The position numbers were made by a program, and so were the translations under genes. This document shows positions 18,651-30,968 of a stretch of 35,818 bases of DNA, piece after piece. Position 1 is the first letter of the stretch, and each line of letters starts with the position of its first letter. The stretch lies in NCBI GenBank assembly GCA_947467625.1, contig CANIJN010000021.1:1-35818 (forward strand), written 5' to 3'. Under the pieces are notes generated by a model. It did not search any database. It saw only the letters and a list, made by a program, of their open reading frames with translations, and was not told the DNA's origin. Source of the stretch: Opitutia bacterium. Its GTDB lineage: Bacteria > Verrucomicrobiota > Verrucomicrobiia > Opitutales > Opitutaceae.

Positions 18651-20789
18651 ATGGCTGTTCGTTTTTTTTCGGTAGCTGAGAATTTTTCTCGTCATCTTCG
18701 GGCGGGGCTTTGGGTGATCGGATTGGTCTTGGCCGGGGTCGAGGCTCAAGTCGTGCCGGCGGTGACGACACCGTCGGCGGCGCGTGCGGAGATTGCTGCG
18801 CTACGCATCGAGATTGCGCGGCATGATGCGCTCTACCATCGGCAGGCAGCGCCGGAGATCAGCGATGGGGACTACGATGGGTTGAAGCGGAAACTGAGAG
18901 TGTGGGAGCAAACCTATCCAGAGATTGCCCTCGAAGTGCCGGCAGTGGCGGAAGTGGGCGACGACCGCAGCGGGTTGTTTAAAACCTATCGGCATCGCGA
19001 GCGGATGATGAGTTTGGAGAAGGCCTACACGGAGGCGGAGTTGCGGGCGTTTTCCGCGCGGGTGGAAAAGGCGGTGGGCAAGCGTGAGCTCGCGTTTGTG
19101 ATCGAACCGAAGTTCGACGGGCTCGCAGTGAGTGTAACGTTTGAGCGGGGGCGGCTCGTGCGAGCGGTCACGCGGGGGAACGGGATCGAAGGCGACGAGG
19201 TGACGGCGCATGTGCTGGCGATTGTGGGACTGCCGCAGACACTACGGGTGCTGGGCCAGGGTGTGGGCGCGGGAGAGCTTCCGGTGGTGATTGAGTTGCG
19301 CGGTGAGGTGTATGTGCCGTTTGCGGAATTTCAGCGGGTGAACGCGGAGCGGGAGGCGGCGGGCGAGACGCGGTTTGCGAATCCGCGCAATCTCGCGGCG
19401 GGTACGCTGCGTCAGCTCGATGCATCGGAGGTGACGCGCCGGGGGCTCGCGGTGGTGTTTTATGGCATCGGTGCGTGCGAGCCGCTCACGGCGTATCCGA
19501 CGACACAGCACGGGCTGCATGAAAAAATCCGAGCGTGGGGATTGCCGGGGGTGGGCGAGGTATGGCGGGCGATGGGAACGGATGCGTTGTGGCGCGCGGT
19601 GCAGACGGTGGAAACGGCGCGGGCGAGTTTCACGTTTCCGACGGACGGTGCGGTGGTGAAGTTGGATGAGATGGCGTGGCAGCGCGAAGTCGGTGTCGGG
19701 GAAAGTGCGCCGCGGTGGGCAGTGGCCTACAAGTTCGCAACGGAGCGGGCGGAGACGCTGCTGCGCGGGATCACGATTCAAGTGGGACGCACGGGAGTGC
19801 TGACGCCGGTAGCGGAGTTGGAACCGGTGGTGCTCGCGGGTTCGAAAGTGGCGCGGGCGACGTTGCATAATCGCGACGAGATCGCGCGACGGGATCTTCG
19901 CGTGGGGGATTTTGTGTATGTGGAGAAGGCAGGGGAGATCATTCCCGCGCTCGTGGGAGTGAACCGCGCGCGGAGGCCGGCGGAGGCGGTGCCGTTTGTA
20001 TTTCCGACGGTGTGTCCGGCGTGTCAAACGCCGGTGGTGCAGCGGGCAGGCGAGGTGGCGGTGCGTTGTCCGGGGGCGGCCTGTCCGGCGCAACTGCGGC
20101 GGCGGATCGAACATTTTGCCTCGAAGGCGGGCGTCGATATCGAGGGGCTCGGTCCAGTGACAATTGAGGCCCTGGTGGAGCGCGGGGTCGTGAAGGAGTT
20201 GGCTGATCTCTATCGGTTGCGACGTGAGGACGTGGCGGCGCTGGGGAAAAATGTCAGCAAGTCGGGCGAGCGATTGCTCGGAGCGATCGAGGCGAGTAAG
20301 CGGGTTGAGCTGGTGCGGGTCATTTACGGACTCGGGATTCCGCAGATTGGGGCGGTGGCCGCGAAGGAGTTGGCGCGCGAGTGCGGGAGTTTGGAAGCGG
20401 TGGCGGCGCTCGGAAACGCGGCGGCACCGGCGGGCGCCTCGGCAGCAGTGCGCGCGGCGGCGGCGTATTTCGCGGAGCCGAGAAACCGGACGGTGGCGCT
20501 CGAGCTGATTGCAGTGGGCGTGCGGCCGACGGTGGTCGCCGCGGGCGCAGGGGGCCGCGCGTTGCTGGGAAAGATTTTTGTGCTGACGGGGACGTTGCCC
20601 ACCCTGTCACGCGCGCAGGCGACGGGGAAGATCGAGGCGGCGGGCGGGAAAGTGAGCGGCAGCGTGAGTGCGCGGACGGACTACGTCGTCGCAGGGACGG
20701 AGCCGGGTGTGAAACGGGAGCAGGCGCGGACGCTCAAGGTGCCGGTGATCGATGAGGCGGAGTTGCTGCGGATGATTGCGGGGAAGTGA
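18651..20789 (+). CDS. ligA: NAD+-dependent DNA ligase with putative export signal
   Basis: A 712-residue complete NAD+-dependent ligase that seals nicks through a ligase-AMP intermediate. Domain Ia (about 43-125, with ALYHRQAAPEISDGDYD) binds NMN. The adenylation domain has the AMP-accepting lysine in EPKFDG (Lys154), ELRGEVYVP, FPTDGAVVKLDE and WAVAYKF. The OB fold has QVGRTGVLTPVAELEPV. Four zinc-finger cysteines lie at about 455, 458, 473 and 478. Helix-hairpin-helix repeats and a C-terminal BRCT domain (about 636-710) follow. All catalytic motifs appear intact. The oddity is the first ~35 residues: FSRHLRAGLWVIGLVLAGVE followed by AQ resembles a signal peptide with an AxA-like cleavage site, absent from housekeeping LigA (about 670 residues). 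A GTG at 18753 would give a normal cytoplasmic enzyme. The gene stands alone. Confidence 0.93.
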   Translation: MAVRFFSVAENFSRHLRAGLWVIGLVLAGVEAQVVPAVTTPSAARAEIAALRIEIARHDALYHRQAAPEISDGDYDGLKRKLRVWEQTYPEIALEVPAVAEVGDDRSGLFKTYRHRERMMSLEKAYTEAELRAFSARVEKAVGKRELAFVIEPKFDGLAVSVTFERGRLVRAVTRGNGIEGDEVTAHVLAIVGLPQTLRVLGQGVGAGELPVVIELRGEVYVPFAEFQRVNAEREAAGETRFANPRNLAAGTLRQLDASEVTRRGLAVVFYGIGACEPLTAYPTTQHGLHEKIRAWGLPGVGEVWRAMGTDALWRAVQTVETARASFTFPTDGAVVKLDEMAWQREVGVGESAPRWAVAYKFATERAETLLRGITIQVGRTGVLTPVAELEPVVLAGSKVARATLHNRDEIARRDLRVGDFVYVEKAGEIIPALVGVNRARRPAEAVPFVFPTVCPACQTPVVQRAGEVAVRCPGAACPAQLRRRIEHFASKAGVDIEGLGPVTIEALVERGVVKELADLYRLRREDVAALGKNVSKSGERLLGAIEASKRVELVRVIYGLGIPQIGAVAAKELARECGSLEAVAALGNAAAPAGASAAVRAAAAYFAEPRNRTVALELIAVGVRPTVVAAGAGGRALLGKIFVLTGTLPTLSRAQATGKIEAAGGKVSGSVSARTDYVVAGTEPGVKREQARTLKVPVIDEAELLRMIAGK

Positions 20790-26784: not shown

Positions 26785-27870
26785 TTGGACTATGCGCCTG
26801 AGGAAATCTCTGGGCCTTGGCGTATCCCGCGTGAGTCAATCGCAAGCTACCCCTTCCGTCTCGCACTCGACCAAGGTGGCCAGGAAAGCGTTTTTCTCGG
26901 AGGACCGTGCTTCGTTGGTTGGGAAAAAGGCGAGCGTGGCGTTTGGATCGCCAGTTGGCGGCCGCTGTTCTACCGCGAGGTCGAGGTTCGTGCTGCCAAC
27001 GGAGCCTACGAAATTTCACCCAAACAGGGAGCATGGTCCCTGACTCCGCTGATTTACGGCCTGCTGAATCAGGTTCAGGTCGACACGGGTGCGCCACTAG
27101 ATGTGCTTGCGAATCGAATAATGGCGAAGGCCGCAGCGTACAGGAATGACGCAGCAACGCCCTGGAATGTTGCCCTTGCAAAGGCTACCGCCAGCATCGT
27201 CCCGGAATTGGAAAGCGTCATCAGTCGCGAGCTACGCACGGGGGATGTACCAGTTCAGCCAACCCCCTGGTTGCTTTTTGCGCCGACGACCAAGTTCTCA
27301 GCGCTGACTCGCTATCTCATGCAGGATTATGAGAAACTGGAAGCGCGTCTGACGAAATCGCCGAGCGCTATCGGCGGACTACGGCTGCTCGATGCAGAAA
27401 TACCTCCTGCGCCAATCGCCGCCACCGATTTACTGCCAGTTGTTCCGCTGAACAACCTCCAGCTTGAAGCAGTGCAATCCGTTCTCGGCAACCAGCCGTT
27501 GACGGTCATCAGCGGCCCGCCCGGATGCGGGAAAAGTCAGGTTGTGGTCTCCGTCCTACTGAATGCATGGGCGAGAGGCACGTCAGTGCTCTTTGCGAGC
27601 AACAACAATAAGGCCGTCGATGTCGTTCGCGAGCGGCTTGAGAAATTTGAAGCCGAATTCCCAATCGCCGTGAGGGCAGGTAATCGGGAAAAAATAACAT
27701 CATCGAGGTGCTTCGCCGTACGCTCAACATGGCGGCAGGGTCATTCGCCGCGAATACAGTTACTGACCCAACCCAGCTACGGCAGCGGCGCGACGAACTC
27801 CTCTTCGAAAGGGCTCGATTGCAGCAGCATCTGGAGTCGCATTTGCCTCAACGAACTTCGGAAGCACTGA
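26785..27870 (+). CDS. helicase N-terminal segment with Walker A (open frame before the frameshift)
   Basis: A 361-codon open frame, with a TTG as the first possible start after the amber codon. Homologous sequence runs to about 27688; the last 60 codons are out of frame and meaningless. The first ~230 residues (containing SVFLGGPCFVGWEKGERGVW, and EISPKQGAWSLTPLIYGLL) match no domain I can name. NLQLEAVQSVLGNQPLTVIS leads into the Walker A loop GPPGCGKSQ (about residues 244-252), and VLFASNNNKAVDVVRERLE is helicase motif Ia. Without the C-terminal half this product would bind but not productively hydrolyse ATP. It is best treated as the 5' part of the interrupted gene. Confidence 0.6.
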   Translation: MDYAPEEISGPWRIPRESIASYPFRLALDQGGQESVFLGGPCFVGWEKGERGVWIASWRPLFYREVEVRAANGAYEISPKQGAWSLTPLIYGLLNQVQVDTGAPLDVLANRIMAKAAAYRNDAATPWNVALAKATASIVPELESVISRELRTGDVPVQPTPWLLFAPTTKFSALTRYLMQDYEKLEARLTKSPSAIGGLRLLDAEIPPAPIAATDLLPVVPLNNLQLEAVQSVLGNQPLTVISGPPGCGKSQVVVSVLLNAWARGTSVLFASNNNKAVDVVRERLEKFEAEFPIAVRAGNREKITSSRCFAVRSTWRQGHSPRIQLLTQPSYGSGATNSSSKGLDCSSIWSRICLNELRKH

Positions 27871-30800
27871 AGACCGCGCTGCGTGGGTACGGCGCATGCA
27901 AAATGAAGCGGGCTGAGCTCGCCCAGCAAGAGACCGCACTGCTTGACGCTACCGCAAAGCTTGGCCTGCCAGGCTTCTCTTCGGCTCAAATTGAATCACT
28001 GCTCGATGCCTCCCAGCGATGGCTGCGCTCTGTGGCAAAGCATCGGCAACAGGTTCAAACCGAATCGGTCGAGCGGGACCAGCTGCGGTCTGAGGCGTCT
28101 TTGCGTGGCCGGGTCCGTGACCAAGCAGTTTCCGCGGTTGGGCTCGAAGCGTCCCAACTTGAAGATTGGACTTGGCTCACCGATGGACCGCAAACAAGCC
28201 AGCTCGACGCCTGGGAAACCCAACTCAAGGCGTTGCTCGAAGAGCCGCTGGAGGTCGCTCTGGAGCCCTACCACTGGCAGGAGGAATTCAACCGCTGGGT
28301 CAGCAATGAAGATGCCGCAAAGTCCGCGCAACTCGCGCGGGCCTTCAGTGAGGAAATCAGACGTGCCACTGCGGAGTTGGCGCCGAAGGTAAACAAAATC
28401 TCATCCGGTGAAAAGGCGCTGCGGGAGCATGCCAGCAAGCTGGCCGAGCTAGGCCTGGAGGAACGAGACGATTTACGTTTGGAAGTGCTGCAAGCATGGA
28501 GCAGCGGCTACGCGGAATTATCCACGCGGCAAAAGTCGTTCTGGGATTTTCTACCTTGGACGCCTGCGGGAAAATTGAGTCGTCACTTGGAAACGCAGGA
28601 GCGTCTGATGCGAGACTGGGTACCACTCGGTAAGTGGCAGCAAGTAGGTACGCTGAATGACGAGGGCCGCTCTCGTCTTGCAACCACCGTTGAATCTCTT
28701 CGGCGGTACGTGCAAAACCGAATGGCGTGGCAGAACCTCGAACCGGAGCGGAGCGAGGTTGAGTCAATACTGCAGCGCCTACGGGCCACGGCAGGTTTGC
28801 TAAACTTAGAAAACATTCCGGCTGAGGCAGACCCTGATTTGTGGCGAGGCGTTATCAAATCGTGCGATGTCCTCAGCGTCAAAGGGACCGCAGCCTCCGA
28901 AGCTTGGCGTCGGCGCACCGCAGCAGAAAGTGCCACCAAGCGTCTTGCCAATCTGGCGCGCGAGTGGACGACATTCGCCAGTGGCCAGCCGCTCAAAATT
29001 TCTTGGGCAACCCACATCGGACGGAAGCTGGACCTAGACGTCGCCGCTGTTCTTGAGGAGCCCACGCCAGCGAAGGTTGTCGCTCTCAGGTCATCCTATT
29101 ACTCTGGAGCACTGAGTCGATTGCGCGCGGCTTGGGTCGAAGCATTCAACGAAGAAGCGAGTCGTCGAAGCCTGCTGACCAAAGCAGCCAAACTGCCATC
29201 CGAGAGCGATCACATTGCGACCGTATGGAGCCAGGCACCGCAGGCGAATCCCAATACGGCAACCGCCAATGAATCTGAATGGCCCGACACCGGTGCATGG
29301 GAGAACTGTCTAAACGGCCTCAGAGAGTTGCACGGTCAGTGGCAGACGTTCCACGACAAGACTAAGCCCACGGCATTGAGAGAGGCGGAGGAAGAAGCCA
29401 AGTGGTCGGTCACGCAGCTCGCAAAGGCGGTAGAATTGCTTCCTGAGCAAGGGCGCTCTGCTGACCTTAGCGCACAACTTTCGGCAATTGAGAATAACCC
29501 ATCCGTAGACTGGCCAGTGGAGGCGCTGAACGCGGCATTCGCAGAGGTAAGCCCCGACCGATTTCGGGCGCGCATCGAGCAAATCAACGCGCAGCTTCAA
29601 AAACGTTCCTTCGAAGATGCGAAGGCCGAATGGCTGGAACGTCTCCAGAAGGAGAAAGAAGGGATTCAGGCAGTTGACTCACTTGAAAAGACCTTGCGGA
29701 GAAATCACGGCGAACTGCCCGAGGGCGACCTGCCGCTTTTTCAGAAGGCACTCCCTCTGGTTCCGATTTGGATTACGACTGCGCAGGCAGCTCAGGCAAT
29801 CCCCCTTCACCCGGAATTGTTTGACCTCGTGATAATTGACGAGGCTTCCCAATGCACGCTGACCAACTTGCTCCCGCTGCTCTACCGCGGCAAGCGCTTG
29901 GCAATCATTGGCGACGCCGAACAACTGCCCGCCATTCCAACGATCCAAGGGCTAGAGGAGAAGGCTTTGGCAACAAAGCATAACATCCTCGAACACCTGA
30001 ACCTTGTCGGCCACGCGGGGAACGACGTTTACAAGACTGCGACGGAATCGCTTCCAAGGCGGCGAGCGGATGTCCTCCAGCTCAATGAGCACTTCCGAAG
30101 TAACCCGCAGATTATTGGGTTCTCCAATCGTCACATTTACCTTCAGCGGCTCATTCTGAAAAAAGACCCGACAAGAACGGCGGCATTGCCTGTCGGGAGC
30201 GGCGTCCACCGCATCCACGTCACTGGAGCAGCGGAACAGGGACCTCGGGGACGCAGTTGGGTGAATCAAGCGGAGGGAAATGCCGTTCTGGACCTTATCA
30301 CGAAGCTGCGCTCCACGCCTGTCGCCAAAGACCGCAGCTTGGGTGTTGTGACGTCCTTCGCCGCGCACAAGGACTGGTTGCGGGAAAAGATTCAAGAACG
30401 TGGCTTAAGCTCAGAAGTTCTGGTTGATTCAGCATACGGTTTTCAGGGCGATGAGCGCGACATCATGATTTTCAGCCCCGTTGTCGCCCGCGGGATCACG
30501 AGTAGCGCCAGTCGTTGGGTCGAAAGCCCCCCAAATTTAGTCAACGTCGCCCTAACCCGCGCGAAGGAAGCGTTGTATGTCGTGGCGGACTTCGACTACT
30601 GCCTGCAGCAGGAGGGAATCCTAAGAAAGCTGGCCCTTTATTGCCGCGACATTCAGTTACTGCGGGATACGAGTCCGGCTAAGCTCGAGCTTTACAGCTG
30701 GATGATAGTTCAAGGCTGGACCCCGAAGATTCATCCCCGAATTGGCGATGTTGAAGCTGACTTTGAACTTACGGCAGACAGCGGCCAGAAACTCGCCATC

Positions 30801-30968
30801 GAAGTGGACGGTGGCGGTGAAGACCACTGGGGTCGGAAGGAGCAGGACAAGGCAAGAGATGCATTCCTCCACGCACAGGGATACGTCGTGCTTCGGTTCC
30901 CCGCGCGGGCAGTCTTGGAAACACCCTTCGAAGTTGTGACTGTAATCGGGAAGAACCTGAAGTCCTGA
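27708..30968 (+). CDS. helicase C-terminal segment with Vsr/PD-(D/E)XK-like nuclease
   Basis: A 1086-codon open frame; the GTG at 27708 is only a formal start because homology begins a few codons before, at the frameshift. Residues about 20-680 form a long, charged, helix-rich insert likely to contain coiled coils. Then come Walker B/motif II LVIIDEASQC (Asp711-Ser714), motif III GDAEQLP (735-741), motif IV LNEHFRSNPQIIGFSNRHIY, motif V SAYGFQGDERDI, and motif VI NVALTRAKEALYVV (about 946). The C-terminus (about 985-1086) has GDVEADFEL, LAIEVDGGGEDHW (Glu1032, Asp1034), KEQDKARDAFLHAQGYVVLR and FPARAV. That pattern fits the Vsr-like REase_MTES_1575/DUF559 group. It would act on nucleic acid, but lacks the ATP-binding P-loop unless joined to the upstream segment. 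Confidence 0.8.
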   Translation: MLRRTLNMAAGSFAANTVTDPTQLRQRRDELLFERARLQQHLESHLPQRTSEALKTALRGYGACKMKRAELAQQETALLDATAKLGLPGFSSAQIESLLDASQRWLRSVAKHRQQVQTESVERDQLRSEASLRGRVRDQAVSAVGLEASQLEDWTWLTDGPQTSQLDAWETQLKALLEEPLEVALEPYHWQEEFNRWVSNEDAAKSAQLARAFSEEIRRATAELAPKVNKISSGEKALREHASKLAELGLEERDDLRLEVLQAWSSGYAELSTRQKSFWDFLPWTPAGKLSRHLETQERLMRDWVPLGKWQQVGTLNDEGRSRLATTVESLRRYVQNRMAWQNLEPERSEVESILQRLRATAGLLNLENIPAEADPDLWRGVIKSCDVLSVKGTAASEAWRRRTAAESATKRLANLAREWTTFASGQPLKISWATHIGRKLDLDVAAVLEEPTPAKVVALRSSYYSGALSRLRAAWVEAFNEEASRRSLLTKAAKLPSESDHIATVWSQAPQANPNTATANESEWPDTGAWENCLNGLRELHGQWQTFHDKTKPTALREAEEEAKWSVTQLAKAVELLPEQGRSADLSAQLSAIENNPSVDWPVEALNAAFAEVSPDRFRARIEQINAQLQKRSFEDAKAEWLERLQKEKEGIQAVDSLEKTLRRNHGELPEGDLPLFQKALPLVPIWITTAQAAQAIPLHPELFDLVIIDEASQCTLTNLLPLLYRGKRLAIIGDAEQLPAIPTIQGLEEKALATKHNILEHLNLVGHAGNDVYKTATESLPRRRADVLQLNEHFRSNPQIIGFSNRHIYLQRLILKKDPTRTAALPVGSGVHRIHVTGAAEQGPRGRSWVNQAEGNAVLDLITKLRSTPVAKDRSLGVVTSFAAHKDWLREKIQERGLSSEVLVDSAYGFQGDERDIMIFSPVVARGITSSASRWVESPPNLVNVALTRAKEALYVVADFDYCLQQEGILRKLALYCRDIQLLRDTSPAKLELYSWMIVQGWTPKIHPRIGDVEADFELTADSGQKLAIEVDGGGEDHWGRKEQDKARDAFLHAQGYVVLRFPARAVLETPFEVVTVIGKNLKS

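Follow-up and report, generated by a model that had tools for sequence, protein, structure and literature searches.

An NAD+-dependent DNA ligase paralogue with a predicted export signal in the family Opitutaceae

A stretch of 35,818 nt from an Opitutia bacterium (family Opitutaceae), referred to here as the window, contains an uninterrupted ORF at positions 18651-20789 of the plus strand that starts with ATG and encodes a LigA of 712 amino acids with a signal-peptide-like N-terminus. The comparisons reported below make it quite probable that LigA was duplicated in Opitutaceae and that one of the two copies is exported and acts as an NAD+-dependent, nick-sealing ligase outside the inner membrane. 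The predicted export of this type of LigA is well supported by sequence comparison. As to its role, we infer that it would seal nicked DNA beyond the inner membrane.

The window protein was assigned to LigA by NCBIfam (NF005932, TIGR00575) with 690.1 bits against a cut-off of 369, the LigA alignment beginning at residue 47. The closest solved structure was 2owo, a DNA ligase of 671 residues. The adenylation, OB, zinc-finger, HHH_2 and BRCT matches exceeded their Pfam cut-offs, and the matches of Ia (Table 1) and HHH_5 (21 against 27 bits) fell below them. Three of the 28 positions compared with E. coli LigA differed, namely R379 (K), G489 (V) and G553 (A); K at the R379 position was also found in 100 of the 109 signal-free copies described below. 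All Ia, nucleotidyltransferase and zinc positions were the same as in E. coli LigA. Y62, D72, Y75 and D76 of the window protein correspond to Y22, D32, Y35 and D36 of E. coli LigA, which we take to be the NAD+-specific residues of domain Ia. The KxDG lysine, motifs III to V, OB fold, C4 zinc finger, HhH and BRCT were all present. The catalytic, zinc-finger, HhH and BRCT motifs described as intact in the initial annotation of the window were confirmed by Pfam and residue alignment.

Table 1. Features of the ligase gene in the window and the evidence for each.
Feature	Position (nt)	Strand	Evidence and remarks
Exported-type LigA paralogue, whole gene	18651..20789	+	ORF, Pfam, NCBIfam
Signal-peptide-like N-terminus, residues 1-32, predicted cleavage VEA↓Q	18651..18746	+	Signal rule and relatives; cleavage inferred
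GTG codon 35, rival short-form start	18753..18755	+	GAGG 8 nt upstream
Ia NAD+-binding domain	18792..18947	+	Pfam 26.1 bits, just below the 27-bit cut-off; residue alignment
Adenylation domain; nucleophile lysine K154 at 19110-19112	18978..19742	+	Pfam, residue alignment
OB-fold domain	19752..19985	+	Pfam
C4 zinc finger, C455/C458/C473/C478	20013..20090	+	Pfam, residue alignment
Helix-hairpin-helix region	20136..20405	+	Pfam, HHH_2 over and HHH_5 under cut-off
BRCT domain	20562..20777	+	Pfam; absent from 22/44 exported-type copies

The assembly comprises 5,591,317 bases in 362 contigs, of which contig C21 is the window. A search for a second, signal-free ligA in the genome had been proposed, and one was found on contig C210. 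It encodes a LigA of 745 residues without a signal-like N-terminus, which is 46-48% identical to the window protein over residues 40-577. Because the genome has this signal-free LigA on another contig, the window LigA is a paralogue; with a second ligA in its genome and a signal-like N-terminus, it departs from the description of LigA as the sole or housekeeping cytoplasmic ligase. Contig C320 carries a near-identical C-terminal piece of the signal-free ligA adjoining an ORF that reads as DnaA; this piece looks like a strain variant of the C210 gene.

Two sorts of LigA were already seen in an initial sample of 38 related genomes and 80 contig loci, the organisms of which partly overlap: in one the start lies a few residues ahead of the core, and the other has a hydrophobic N-terminal extension. 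The main search covered 110 Opitutaceae genomes that were 90% or more complete, of which 108 gave a match, and 119 further listed matches were added. The LigA core was located by HMM in each locus. The signal rule described below was passed by 36 of the 168 whole-genome loci, and eight more loci were signal-like by eye (L087, L154, L204, L205, L209, L184, L210 and L111), the weakest of these being L184, L205 and L210. The set used for analysis consisted of 44 exported-type, 109 signal-free and 13 outgroup rows; L117 (duplicate), L236 (broken), L131 (385 residues from the core) and L132 (fragment) were left out before tree construction, and L001 was added. An exported-type copy was present in at least 43 of the 110 genomes among the matches listed; a further carrier, G004, is less complete and lies outside the 110. 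A repeat search for weaker matches in 12 genomes out of the 110 gave six further carriers (G123, G301, G372, G385, G326 and G361), all passing the signal rule, with the copies in G326 and G361 split or frame-broken. Exported-type LigA thus occurs in at least 49 of the 110 genomes (41 by rule, 8 by eye). A signal-free copy was present in all 49 carriers, and ligase fragments in G339 and G370 were left unclassified in the carrier count. G337 carries, in addition to its exported-type copy, two that are signal-free. In one genome of the window's genus, in which otherwise only a signal-free ligA was found, a degraded BRCT-like ligase piece with stops lies at G007:C26:29693-30112. The second copy, the distribution in at least 49 of 110 genomes and the catalytic residues support the proposal, made from the window alone, of a putatively exported NAD+-type paralogue distinct from the housekeeping enzyme.

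The residues ahead of the LigA alignment of the window protein read MAVRFFSVAENFSRHLRAGLWVIGLVLAGVEA↓QVVPAVTTPSAARA, and the N-terminus MAVRFFSVAENFSRHLRAGLWVIGLVLAGVEA↓Q passes the signal-peptide rule, which requires a basic n-region, an uncharged 9-residue core with a mean hydropathy of at least 2 and an AxA-like site. The basic stretch, hydrophobic core and plausible cleavage site first noted in the window are therefore present, with about 40 extra residues and an AxA-type site, VEA↓Q. The rule is crude: it was passed by 7 of 20 E. coli CDS, including two soluble cytoplasmic and three inner-membrane proteins. Shuffled residues of the window stretch passed 17% of the time, and shuffles of all passing loci passed in 22% of cases on average. 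Taken by itself, the result of the rule for the window protein is weak. Across the family, the rule was passed by 36 of the 44 exported-type copies and by none of the 109 signal-free copies, among them 35 in which an in-frame start is available 18-95 codons upstream. The recurrence of signal character in this group contrast indicates that it goes beyond chance, and a chance extension is ruled out by the contrast together with the absence of short-form starts described below. Conservation of the N-terminus among relatives, which had been named as a check, held for the property, which recurs, and failed for the letters, which are hardly conserved; among five same-genus genomes the letters of the first 45 codons are under loose constraint. 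Signal peptides are generally loose in letters. Tat export was rejected, as a Tat-like RR motif was found in one of the 44 copies (L111), where it precedes what is by eye the likely signal. A lipoprotein was also rejected: a lipobox-like string occurred in 4 of the 44, and the window protein has none.

The hydrophobic stretch may instead be an uncleaved anchor, tethering the ligase to the inner membrane with its bulk facing the periplasm, perhaps near a DNA-uptake channel; we regard this as unlikely. Basic residues precede the core, an orientation that would place the remainder of the protein outside, and the signal rule cannot separate signals from membrane helices, as the three E. coli inner-membrane proteins show. 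ComEC was found in 98 of the 110 genomes: 48 of the 49 carriers have it, compared with 50 of the 61 non-carriers (Fisher p 0.011, kinship uncorrected), and four of the 12 genomes without it belong to one genus. Since ComEC occurs almost throughout the family, its co-occurrence says little on the role of the ligase, and a competence link was not relied on. Against an anchor, AxA-type sites directly follow the core, and by inspection those within the window's genus read VEA↓Q, AEA↓Q or AAA↓Q. The wider count of AxA sites would be circular as evidence for cleavage because the rule demanded a site.

Less likely again is an internal true start, at GTG 18753 or near it, which would make the protein an ordinary cytoplasmic second LigA and the upstream part untranslated or a minor form. 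GTG 18753 is preceded by GAGG, no Shine-Dalgarno-like motif was seen at ATG 18651, and all five same-genus orthologues have a start codon 7-11 residues ahead of the core. However, no ATG, GTG or TTG lies 4-13 residues ahead of the core in 26 of the 44 exported-type copies, and 20 of these 26 (20/44 overall) have none within 17 residues, so that a short cytoplasmic LigA looks impossible in those. Shine-Dalgarno-like motifs are rare in any case, occurring at 12 of the 109 signal-free copies and 5 of 32 exported-type ATG starts. Most signal-free copies begin 7 residues ahead of the core, with M and then a few residues such as TPAEA, and the window protein lacks such a beginning. Signal character also recurs in unrelated letters. 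Given GTG 18753 with GAGG upstream, the window protein may have a second, cytoplasmic form besides the predicted exported one.

Key catalytic residues are conserved in the exported-type copies. K115, D117, G118, E173, K290, K314, D32, Y35 and D36 (E. coli LigA numbering) were kept in 44 of 44, Y22 in 43 of 44 and all four zinc cysteines in 42 of 44; H23 varied in exported-type and signal-free groups alike. The G553 position was G in 17 of 44 exported-type copies, compared with 105 of 109 signal-free copies. BRCT was absent from 22 of 44 exported-type copies (L205 being cut by a contig end) and from one of 109 signal-free copies (L232, likewise cut). The mature parts had a mean pI of 8.0 in the exported type and 6.2 in the signal-free type, and lysine contents of 3.2% and 5.0%, respectively, both comparisons being uncorrected for kinship. 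Among five same-genus genomes (10 pairs for each copy), dN/dS was 0.15-0.28 for the mature part of the exported copy, and the housekeeping copy gave 0.09-0.17. The barely conserved N-terminal letters, the dN/dS above that of the housekeeping copy and the relaxed G553 position are points against export of an active ligase. It is about as improbable as an internal start, though, that the protein is exported but no longer a ligase, binding DNA or NAD+ or simply decaying. The missing BRCT domains, the faster evolution, the incomplete or broken copies of G339, G361 and G326 and the degraded BRCT-like piece in G007 would fit such a loss, but the key catalytic residues are retained in 44 of 44 copies and dN/dS stays at 0.15-0.28.

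The tree of the 44, 109 and 13 rows was built only from the part after the signal, with the exported and signal-free labels fixed beforehand. On that tree the label changed twice, compared with a mean of 39 changes after shuffling. A 54-row tree took in 23 of the 44 exported-type rows, picked by hand; 20 of them formed one clade (support 100/100) inside Opitutaceae LigA and three formed a second (100/100). A single exported-type clade appeared in 0 of 200 bootstrap trees of this set. The AU test did not reject one clade (p 0.376). As between two origins in Opitutaceae and one, a single origin was thus not rejected. In an earlier 122-row tree, 17 of the 20 rows then labelled signal-bearing fell in one clade, with L119 plus L121 and L073 elsewhere; L121 joined the main exported-type group in the tree of the 44, 109 and 13 rows, and the signal of L073 (Verrucomicrobiales) is doubtful. 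The position of the exported-type clades within Opitutaceae LigA indicates that the gene stems from an old duplication of LigA within the family and is not LigB.

Genes for a PSD1/PSCyt2 protein and a DUF1501 protein lie upstream of the window gene and an amidase gene downstream, all on the opposite strand. No DNA-uptake or nuclease gene was recognised among the ten neighbours scanned, and the context gives no functional hint. The isolated position remarked on initially holds for the window but not for some other genera, in which a neighbourhood recurs. By inspection, GroEL-like genes were found beside 10 of the 44 exported-type copies, MBL-fold-like beside 13, Rrf2-like beside 12 and porin-like beside 7; the flanks spanned 3.5-14 kb, so these counts are lower bounds. 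The set was seen beside none of the 109 signal-free copies and none of 10 further contig loci. It is absent from the window's genus and suggests no function. L147, L202, L217 and L220 are among the loci in which an exported-type ligA lies by GroEL-like, MBL-fold-like and Rrf2-like genes. Elsewhere in the window, ORFs at 26785-27870 and 27708-30968 overlap in different frames and carry AAA_11 and AAA_12 plus DUF559 helicase-like parts; they are possibly one gene with a frame break.

We propose the following course for the exported copy. A full-length LigA would have been duplicated within Opitutaceae, one copy gaining a Sec-type signal peptide. This copy would be exported unfolded by Sec and cut at the AxA site by signal peptidase I, and its ligase and zinc finger parts would fold in the periplasm or outside. 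The ligase lysine could then be charged with AMP from trace NAD+, as the conserved Ia and nucleotidyltransferase residues suggest. The enzyme would seal nicks in double-stranded DNA outside the inner membrane, which might be DNA of lysed neighbours, incoming DNA or matrix DNA, and the signal-free copy would handle replication and repair. By analogy with LigE, the role could lie in DNA uptake, extracellular DNA or both. NAD+ is scarce outside the cytoplasm, which counts against an exported NAD+ ligase; if the proposal is true, usable NAD+ must exist outside the inner membrane and may serve as an energy source there. A signal-bearing, catalytically conserved LigA in close to half of the genomes examined in the family would imply that DNA outside is worth repairing.

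Second NAD+ ligases were also surveyed in 288 genomes of the phylum. Sixteen genomes with two matches were taken, Opitutaceae and apparent split-domain weak pairs being omitted. In G150, of another family in the same order, a full-length second LigA (L273) passed the signal rule. Nine genomes of two further families carried an NAD+ ligase of about 400 residues (L274-L282) that was signal-like by eye. Together with L131 (G027), 8 of these 10 minimal ligases passed the rule, L280 and L131 failing. They sit beside a LigA as a second NAD+-type ligase. With L280 as query against the 288 genomes, the nine stood apart at E 7e-118 or better, the next being 7e-73. Second copies without a signal-like N-terminus were L283 (G224) and L285 (G121); these, and the two signal-free copies of G337, count against a general rule that second ligases are exported. 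The remaining four of the 16 genomes had a single gene each. In many genomes of the phylum (family code f28 and others), PF01653 matched twice with a best E no better than about 1e-20, as though an insert divided the adenylation domain of LigA. L273 and the minimal forms are presumably independent in origin of the Opitutaceae exported type. We consider it about evenly balanced whether exported NAD+ ligases form a recurrent class with several origins: once or twice in Opitutaceae, in the family of L273, among minimal Ia-adenylation-OB enzymes and as enterobacterial LigB. If so, second NAD+ ligases of Gram-negatives would often be extracytoplasmic DNA joiners, an NAD+ counterpart of LigE, and a new reading would be offered for E. 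coli LigB.

Judged by sequence, the predicted exported LigA is a real and conserved variant of a known enzyme. No exported or periplasmic NAD+ ligase was found among the open-access literature matches listed, and in the literature found extracytoplasmic DNA joining is proposed only for the ATP-dependent LigE. The window protein shares its domains and its catalytic and NAD+-binding residues with LigA. Unlike ordinary LigA, it has an added signal-like N-terminus and occurs as a paralogue beside a signal-free LigA, and its relatives often lack BRCT. The minimal ligases of Verrucomicrobiota resemble it in having a signal-like N-terminus and in being second NAD+-type ligases, but they are about 400 amino acids long and 32-37% identical to it, and the three that were scanned gave no Pfam zinc finger, HhH or BRCT match. 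LigB (NF005987; E. coli b3647; loci L133:5489-7171, L342 and L343) is likewise a second NAD+-type ligase with a signal-like N-terminus, a trait outside the definition of that family; the signal rule was passed by the E. coli (site before VCP) and Enterobacter proteins and failed by that of Klebsiella, which is signal-like by eye (2/3 passing). In contrast to the window protein, E. coli LigB has no BRCT match, only two zinc cysteines out of the four are present, and its motif IV position is occupied by R. Membership of the window protein in LigB was rejected on its score (166 bits against a cut-off of 498), its BRCT and its complete zinc finger. In the available part of an array study, deletion of cpxR raised ligB 3.6-fold and endA 2.4-fold (PMC2731931), which is a lead only. 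A term search of the available text of a LigB paper (PMC5507437) gave no mention of periplasm, signal, localization, secretion or export, and the available text of a review (PMC5052709) does not mention the periplasm. LigE of Proteobacteria, predicted to be periplasmic or extracellular and discussed for biofilm DNA and competence in the available part of PMC10799422, is like the window protein an accessory ligase with predicted export, which here rests on the signal rule and relatives. LigE is an ATP-dependent minimal ligase, whereas the window protein is of the NAD+ type with appended domains, which rules out its membership in LigE.
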